From Bacteroidaceae bacterium (GTDB taxonomy: Bacteria; Bacteroidota; Bacteroidia; Bacteroidales; Bacteroidaceae), in contig JAFVTL010000051.1 of NCBI GenBank assembly GCA_017503235.1, positions 1 through 36,057 on the forward strand: DNA of 36,057 nt, written 5' to 3'. Positions 27,796 to 28,422 of the stretch are shown piece after piece. The position numbers were made by a program, and so were the translations under genes. How positions within the stretch are numbered: position 1 is the first letter of the stretch; every line of letters begins with the position of its first letter. The notes under the pieces were generated by a model, which saw only the letters and a list, made by a program, of their open reading frames with translations, did not search any database and was not told the DNA's origin.

Positions 27796-27804
27796 CTCCT
27801 CCTT
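27796..27804 (-). promoter_or_regulatory. Strong Shine-Dalgarno of rplI
   Basis: The minus strand reads AAGGAGGAG, fully complementary to the 16S anti-SD core CCUCCUU, 5 nt before the rplI ATG. Nearly all other starts in this window lack such a site. Confidence 0.85.
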
Positions 27805-27805
27805 A

Positions 27806-28075
27806 TTATTTCATCATGTCAGTTACAAATGGAAGTAACGCCAAGTGACGTGCTCTCTTAACAGCCTGCGCAATACGACGTTGGAACTTCAAAGAAGTAC
27901 CGGTAATACGGCGAGGAAGAATCTTACCTTGTTCATTCAAGAACTTCTTCAAGAATTCAGGATCCTTATAGTCGATATACTTAATACCACTCTTTTTGAA
28001 ACGGCAGTATTTCTTCTTCTTAACATCTACTGATGGAGGTGTTAAATATCTGATTTCTGATTGTTGCTGTGCCAT
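27806..28075 (-). CDS. rpsR: 30S ribosomal protein bS18
   Basis: This 89-residue protein lies on the small-subunit platform and pairs with bS6. The family signature is [34 protein letters not shown] at the C-terminus, preceded by [21 protein letters not shown]. It sits between rpsF (2 nt upstream of its start) and rplI (15 nt downstream). A strong Shine-Dalgarno embedded in the end of rpsF precedes it. In Bacteroidetes the bS6-bS18-bS21 pocket on the platform is reported to hold the 16S anti-SD tail, so the SD here could allow feedback control. Confidence 0.98.
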
Positions 28076-28077
28076 GA

Positions 28078-28422
28078 TTAGTCCTCCTTCTTAGCTGATT
28101 TAACATTTCTTCTCTTTGCAGCATATTCTGCAGCATACTTATCCATCTTGACTGTAATATAACGGATAACTCGTTCATCACGACGATAGTTAAGTTCCAA
28201 CTTCTGGATAGTTGCAGGAGTTGCATTAAACTCAATCAACTGATAGAAACCAGTTGATTTCTTTTCAATAGGGTAAGCCAATTTCTTCAAACCCCAATTT
28301 TCTTCATTGATAATCTCTGCACCTTCAGCAGTCAGAATACCTTTGAATTTTTCTACCGCTTCCTTCATCTGAACATCAGATAAAACGGGAGTTAAAATGA
28401 AAACGGTTTCGTACTGATTCAT
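28078..28422 (-). CDS. rpsF: 30S ribosomal protein bS6
   Basis: This 114-residue protein begins [16 protein letters not shown], the usual start of bS6, and contains [23 protein letters not shown] and [17 protein letters not shown]. It heterodimerises with bS18 on the platform of the 30S subunit. It is the first gene of rpsF-rpsR-rplI, read from a strong -33/-7 promoter at 28468-28498. Its own leader has no Shine-Dalgarno, in contrast to the two genes after it. Bacterial rpsF-rpsR messages are often autoregulated by the S6:S18 complex; I did not identify that RNA motif in the short (about 39 nt) leader here. Confidence 0.97.
28082..28089 (-). promoter_or_regulatory. Strong Shine-Dalgarno of rpsR
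   Basis: The minus strand reads AAGGAGGA, ending 6 nt before the rpsR ATG at 28075. It lies inside the last codons of rpsF, so its sequence also codes the rpsF C-terminus (KKED). Confidence 0.88.

Follow-up and report, generated by a model that had tools for sequence, protein, structure and literature searches.

The minus-strand operon rpsF-rpsR-rplI, contained in a 36,057-nt window (the whole stretch of DNA analysed here) from a Bacteroidaceae bacterium, carries strong Shine-Dalgarno (SD) sequences in front of rpsR and rplI. The rpsR site is conserved in relatives and selected beyond coding constraint, and neither rpsF nor the rpsU gene of the same genome has an SD. We consider it likely but unproven, with a probability of roughly 0.55, that these are functional SDs read by ribosomes whose anti-SD is exposed, and that feedback by bS18, the product of rpsR, closes a regulatory loop.

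A strong SD before rpsR and the idea of bS18 feedback are both already published and largely known. In the portions of the literature drawn on here, the 16S rRNA tail is held in a pocket of bS21, bS18 and bS6 (PMC9976891, PMC8710568), the contribution of bS18 to this pocket being reported in Flavobacterium johnsoniae (PMC9976891). The same portions state that strong SDs precede rpsR in Bacteroidales, Cytophagales and Sphingobacteriales (McNutt et al. 2023) and trace the idea of translational autoregulation by bS21 and/or bS18 to Jha et al. 2021 NAR (PMC9976891, PMC8710568); rplI is among the other SD-bearing genes that McNutt et al. 2023 list (PMC9976891). Gene, bacterial order and proposed mechanism are thus all alike here; what is added is one more genome, a test of coding constraint, and a genome-by-genome pairing of rpsR with rpsU and rplI.

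Table 1. Features of the rpsF-rpsR-rplI operon (coordinates in the window; ΔG in kcal/mol).
Feature	Position	Strand	Evidence and remarks
rpsF (bS6)	28078..28422	-	first gene of operon; PF01250, E 1e-31; no SD, ΔG -0.1
SD of rpsR, AAGGAGG core, within last rpsF codons	28082..28089	-	sequence; ΔG -12.6
rpsR (bS18)	27806..28075	-	PF01084, E 1.7e-26
SD of rplI, AAGGAGG core, intergenic	27796..27804	-	sequence; ΔG -11.5
rplI (bL9)	27344..27790	-	PF01281 and PF03948
17-bp hairpin with U-rich 3' arm, after rplI	27290..27327	-	fold of 27275-27345: -27.9 kcal/mol, z -9.2

The operon spans positions 28422 to 27344, and Pfam identifies its products as bS6, bS18 and bL9, the first two as already named in the preliminary description (PF01250, PF01084). 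The bS18 is 100% identical to that of records titled Bacteroides ilei and Phocaeicola massiliensis; its nearest solved counterparts are in PDB entries 9i5v/9i5x, then 7jil and others, and no publication naming 9i5v or 9i5x was found. The hairpin downstream of rplI is the probable operon-ending terminator, and the consensus terminator scan listed no minus-strand terminator, this hairpin included.

Reading the minus strand, AAGGAGGA (28089-28082) is followed by CTAATC and the rpsR ATG at 28075, and AAGGAGGAG (27804-27796) by TAAGT and the rplI ATG at 27790. The spacers are accordingly 6 and 5 nt, as had been described, and the AAGGAGG core lies 7 nt from the ATG in both cases. Both sites had been called full complements of the anti-SD; this is true of the 7 bp formed by AAGGAGG, while the 3' A or AG beyond the core is unpaired with ACACCUCCUUUCU. 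The rpsR site does lie inside the coding end of rpsF (KKED and stop), the rpsF-rpsR gap being 2-3 nt, and the rplI site is intergenic. Folding of both SD regions was no better than that of shuffled sequences.

Energies (ΔG) are those of the duplex with the tail ACACCUCCUUUCU over positions -20 to -1, computed with our own routine and not with free_scan; start codons come from alignment with the window proteins or, for other ORFs, from the first or best ATG. The 16S gene of this genome was not found by RF00177 in the assembly (2.6 Mb, 83.7% complete), and the genes of five other genomes, four from the same genus and one from elsewhere in the order, were read in its place. All five have an intact CCUCC anti-SD and contain CCTCCTTTCT in the tail, which reads ACACCUCCUUUCU (longer reading GGAACACCTCCTTTCT) in the four and ATACCTCCTTTCT (longer reading GGAATACCTCCTTTCT) in the fifth, from another family of the order. 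The tail scan uses the usual anti-SD, and organisms with an altered one are missed.

GGAGG occurs 48 times in the window vs 46.6 expected, i.e., at chance level, and is notable here for its position, not its abundance. The rpsR and rplI matches are the two best among the 29 window ORFs scored at the first ATG; the third best reaches -8.1, or -9.5 (ORF 24463-25485) when every ATG within the first 30 codons may serve as the start. By our routine rpsR, at -12.6 kcal/mol, lies well within the published range of strong SDs (≤ -7 kcal/mol), and with its 7 bp core it does not reach the range of exceptionally strong pairing (< -13 kcal/mol). The match at -8.1, AAAGAAAGG, belongs to ORF 25497-26813, whose start is putatively placed at its first ATG.

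A sample of the same genome (388,611 bases, 236 ORFs of 150 aa or more) showed no excess at -9, with 13/236 ORFs vs 14/236 in a mock window (-60 to -41), in keeping with a Bacteroidales host whose genes are generally SD-poor. At -11 the first ATG gave 9/236 vs 3/236 for the mock, and the best ATG of the first 30 codons 12/236 vs 14/236 in matched in-gene windows. Most genes thus have no SD, with perhaps a few further strong ones outside the window. The earlier statement that strong SDs stand only before rpsR and rplI therefore holds within the window; genome-wide it is doubtful, given the counts at -11, and two relatives carry such sites before rplW, rplE, rplF and rpmD too.

Conservation was followed in 80 named loci, which scored highest among 586 coding for a relative of this bS18 and hence are near relatives; nearly all are titled with Bacteroidales groups, a few titles giving Bacteroidia or Bacteroidetes and nothing finer. 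ΔG was ≤ -9 for rpsR in 71/79 scorable loci and for rplI in 46/79, and for rpsF in 0/72 (L096 was unscorable for rpsR, L114 for rplI, and eight loci for rpsF). Mock windows at -60 to -41 gave 1/79, 0/79 and 1/72, respectively, and a window at +4 to +23 of rpsR gave 1/79. Two of the loci counted as lacking the rpsR SD, L114 and L126, probably have a wrongly assigned start, too far downstream; the remaining six losses are L094, L095, L108, L109, L110 and L119 (-7.4). The 756 flanking ORFs that encode at least 150 aa had little or no excess (38 at ≤ -9 vs 31 in the mock; with the best ATG, 59 vs 71 in matched in-gene windows).

We also asked which of the pocket protein genes carries the SD. The rpsU gene of this genome has none (ΔG +2.1), and residue 54 of its bS21 is Tyr (Tyr54), as in 93/99 aligned bS21 sequences; in the part of the paper used here, McNutt et al. 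place this residue in a stack on A1534 (PMC9976891). Of 149 genomes drawn from the order, the 49 in which both rpsR and rpsU could be read were used, best-scoring loci first and thus non-randomly. At ≤ -9, SDs were found before rpsR in 36, rpsU in 8 and rplI in 37 of the 49, and before rpsF in 0/48; 35 genomes had the SD on rpsR only, 7 on rpsU only, 1 on both and 6 on neither, so that 43/49 carry it on one gene or the other. In other Bacteroidia orders (45 of 99 genomes drawn; G230 and G238 excluded from the class table) the counts were rpsR 9, rpsU 10 and rplI 12, with both in 3, rpsR only in 6, rpsU only in 7 and neither in 29.

The raw Fisher p for exclusion between rpsR and rpsU in the order sample at -9 is 1.4e-4. 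Kinship was taken into account with a quick tree of three proteins from 94 genomes and independent pairs; 6 supported pairs were obtained, too few for significance, with a median p of 1 at both -7 and -9. Mutual exclusion was rejected, being not upheld by independent pairs and absent in the other Bacteroidia orders. For rpsR together with rplI at -9, a mean of 3.9 of 6 pairs changed the same way and none in the opposite way (median p 0.125).

The eight genomes of the order with rpsU at ≤ -9 are G327, G335, G342, G346, G380, G397, G413 and G424; rpsR is weaker than -9 in seven of them and rplI is ≤ -9 in all eight. The rpsU site of G380 reaches -13.2 on our energy scale, which differs from that of McNutt et al. 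In the portion of their paper concerned, no Bacteroidales has an rpsU that ranks first among r-protein genes with an energy below -13 (PMC9976891).

The proposed feedback rests by analogy on papers on F. johnsoniae, from which both the pocket and the bS21-rpsU loop are taken as far as the cited part describes them (PMC9976891). In most ribosomes of the class the anti-SD is reported to be tucked into the pocket of bS21, bS18 and bS6. A minority with an exposed anti-SD, e.g., 30S subunits lacking bS18 or bS21, would pair with the rpsR SD, and this pairing would raise the production of bS18 and so close the loop. We suppose that ribosomes without bS18 are active with a preference for rpsR, and that the site owes its retention to this. 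These ribosomes would also read the rplI site, rplI belonging to a small set of r-protein genes with SDs; we know of no loop that bL9 would close.

That set was examined in the rpsL-rplQ stretch. The S10-spc cluster of this genome could not be read, as L14 had 0 matches in the assembly, and relatives were therefore used. In a same-genus genome and in B. fragilis, ΔG was ≤ -9 in 4/28 r-protein genes each, which we take to be rplW, rplE, rplF and rpmD from gene order and N-termini, L14 having been identified by Pfam. Among the best-scoring 30 of 58 matching genomes of the order, rplE had such a site in 26/30 and seven neighbours in 0-2/30 each. In the end of rplX that encodes the rplE SD, Gly is the uncommon codon GGG in 19/27 cases vs 77/979 elsewhere in rplX, rplN and rplE, and the following Glu is GAG in 27/27 vs 182/687. 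It follows that SDs conserved beyond coding also precede genes for proteins outside the reported pocket. The products of rplI, rplE, rplW, rplF and rpmD are large-subunit proteins, all outside the anti-SD pocket as reported, and a strong conserved SD thus does not prove bS18 feedback; given the rplI site and the relatives' rplE site, feedback cannot be the whole account, and any explanation must also account for genes of proteins that play no part in holding the anti-SD. The SD-bearing genes listed in the portion of McNutt et al. examined do not include rpmD (PMC9976891).

These observations suit another explanation, in which a fixed fraction of SD-competent ribosomes, or partial access to the anti-SD, lifts the expression of a few r-protein genes with no feedback. 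We regard such general tuning as possible, though doubtful. The tuned set might comprise rpsR, rplI, rplE, rplF, rplW and rpmD, with rpsR merely one member, an equally tentative assignment; the contrast of rplE with its neighbours and the restriction to 4/28 genes in each of two genomes agree with it. Left unexplained are that within the operon the rpsR site is retained more widely than any other and rpsF has none, and that one of rpsR and rpsU usually bears an SD in the order.

A joint response can also be envisaged, in which bS18 (or bS21) and uL5, bL9 and, in two genomes, uL6, uL23 and uL30 form a small SD regulon of Bacteroidales whose members rise together upon exposure of the anti-SD in 30S subunits lacking bS18 or bS21. 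A single signal would then complete the small subunit and tune the supply of the large one. This is improbable in our estimation. It fits the association of the rplI SD with an SD on rpsR or rpsU (36/43 genomes with vs 1/6 without in the order, Fisher 0.002; 8/16 vs 4/29 in the other orders, Fisher 0.014), yet on the tree this association is non-significant, with a median p of 0.25.

Still less probable is that the SD serves termination-reinitiation, retaining a ribosome that finishes the upstream gene and passing it to the next start. The rpsF-rpsR gap, short in this operon, is -1 to 5 nt in 57/76 measurable loci, in two genomes rplE and rplX share one base, and close gene pairs of this genome have ΔG ≤ -9 in 9/63 cases vs 4/63 in the mock, in a sample that includes a prophage-like region. 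Other close pairs flanking the 80 loci show no excess, however (10/196 at ≤ -9 vs 16/196 in the mock), and the rpsR SD is retained where the gap is 13-40 nt.

The preliminary description had noted that the rpsR SD is constrained by the rpsF C-terminus and proposed aligning the junction across relatives. Where the SD is strong and its core could be placed (69 loci), the core lies inside rpsF in 52, outside in 14 and across the stop codon in 3. Codons were compared in the 57 loci with a gap of -1 to 5 nt, whether or not their SD is strong. Glu occupies the penultimate codon of rpsF in 53/57, and this codon is GAG in 47/53 of these vs 276/741 Glu codons elsewhere in the same genes (Fisher 8e-14), and the Lys preceding it is AAG in 38/41 vs 444/740 (Fisher 8e-6), both p values being too small because related sequences are not independent. 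Since the site persists where rpsF ends upstream and the rpsF codons are biased, it is selected for itself; the alignment, with the SD kept in 71/79 loci, thus bears out conservation beyond coding constraint. Upon synonymous resampling of the rpsF tail an average of 18% of draws match the observed energy, which shows that the rpsF amino acids contribute to SD strength. Chance, ruled out by the positional contrast and the conservation, or a by-product of the bS6 C-terminus, whose Lys-Glu tail favours AAGGAG and reaches the observed strength in those 18% of resamples, is already largely refuted and almost certainly wrong, given the 14 non-coding and 3 stop-spanning rpsR sites, the codon bias and the intergenic rplI site.

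For bS18 feedback we count the rpsR SD in 71/79 loci vs the mocks, its absence from rpsF (0/72), the non-coding sites, the GAG bias, the 43/49 genomes, the lack of an SD on the genome's own rpsU, Tyr54, the CCTCCTTTCT tails, SD regions that fold no better than shuffled sequences and the F. johnsoniae bS21 data as far as the cited part gives them. Against it we count the SDs at rplI (46/79), rplE (26/30) and, in two genomes, rplW, rplF and rpmD, the unsupported exclusion between rpsR and rpsU, the 18% resampling and the 6/49 genomes with neither SD. The feedback interpretation of the rpsR SD is on balance partly supported, and plausible and reasonable.

In other bacteria, rpsF operons are regulated by a leader that responds to the bS6:bS18 complex. 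Such systems would share with the proposed one autoregulation of the same operon; they differ in the leader, as no Rfam leader was found upstream of rpsF here. An RNA leader 5' of rpsF was rejected as far as Rfam families go, there being no match at gathering score and no leader among five weak matches; the fold of 28393-28468, a putative leader segment, was no better than shuffles (z +1.1).

The closest demonstrated loop is the control of rpsU by bS21 in F. johnsoniae, where, in the portion of the report used, reporters with a strong SD are translated more when bS21 is mutated or depleted (PMC9976891). The two have in common a strong SD on the gene of an anti-SD-pocket protein in a class with an occluded anti-SD; they differ in the protein and in the core, 7 bp here vs 9-13 bp reported for rpsU in that portion. 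A search for literature on bS18 control or Bacteroides SDs, most subscription papers lying outside it, found no bS18-depletion experiment. If bS18 feedback holds, it would be the Bacteroidales counterpart of the bS21 loop, and ribosomes of differing composition would select different mRNAs.

Of the 13 sites at -9 in the sample of this genome, 3 are on one contig (C32), 5' of endolysin and tape-measure genes. The region is likely a prophage; no PHROG match was obtained for the four SD-bearing C32 proteins tested. In positions 20001-40000 of this contig (L191), the starts at 6208, 6813, 8070 and 13068 have anti-SD matches of -17.7, -19.6, -15.9 and -11.1, and the endolysin and tape-measure matches are in the adjoining segment, L192. 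Three C32 matches exceed the strength of rpsR; the class to which the host belongs is reported to ignore SDs.
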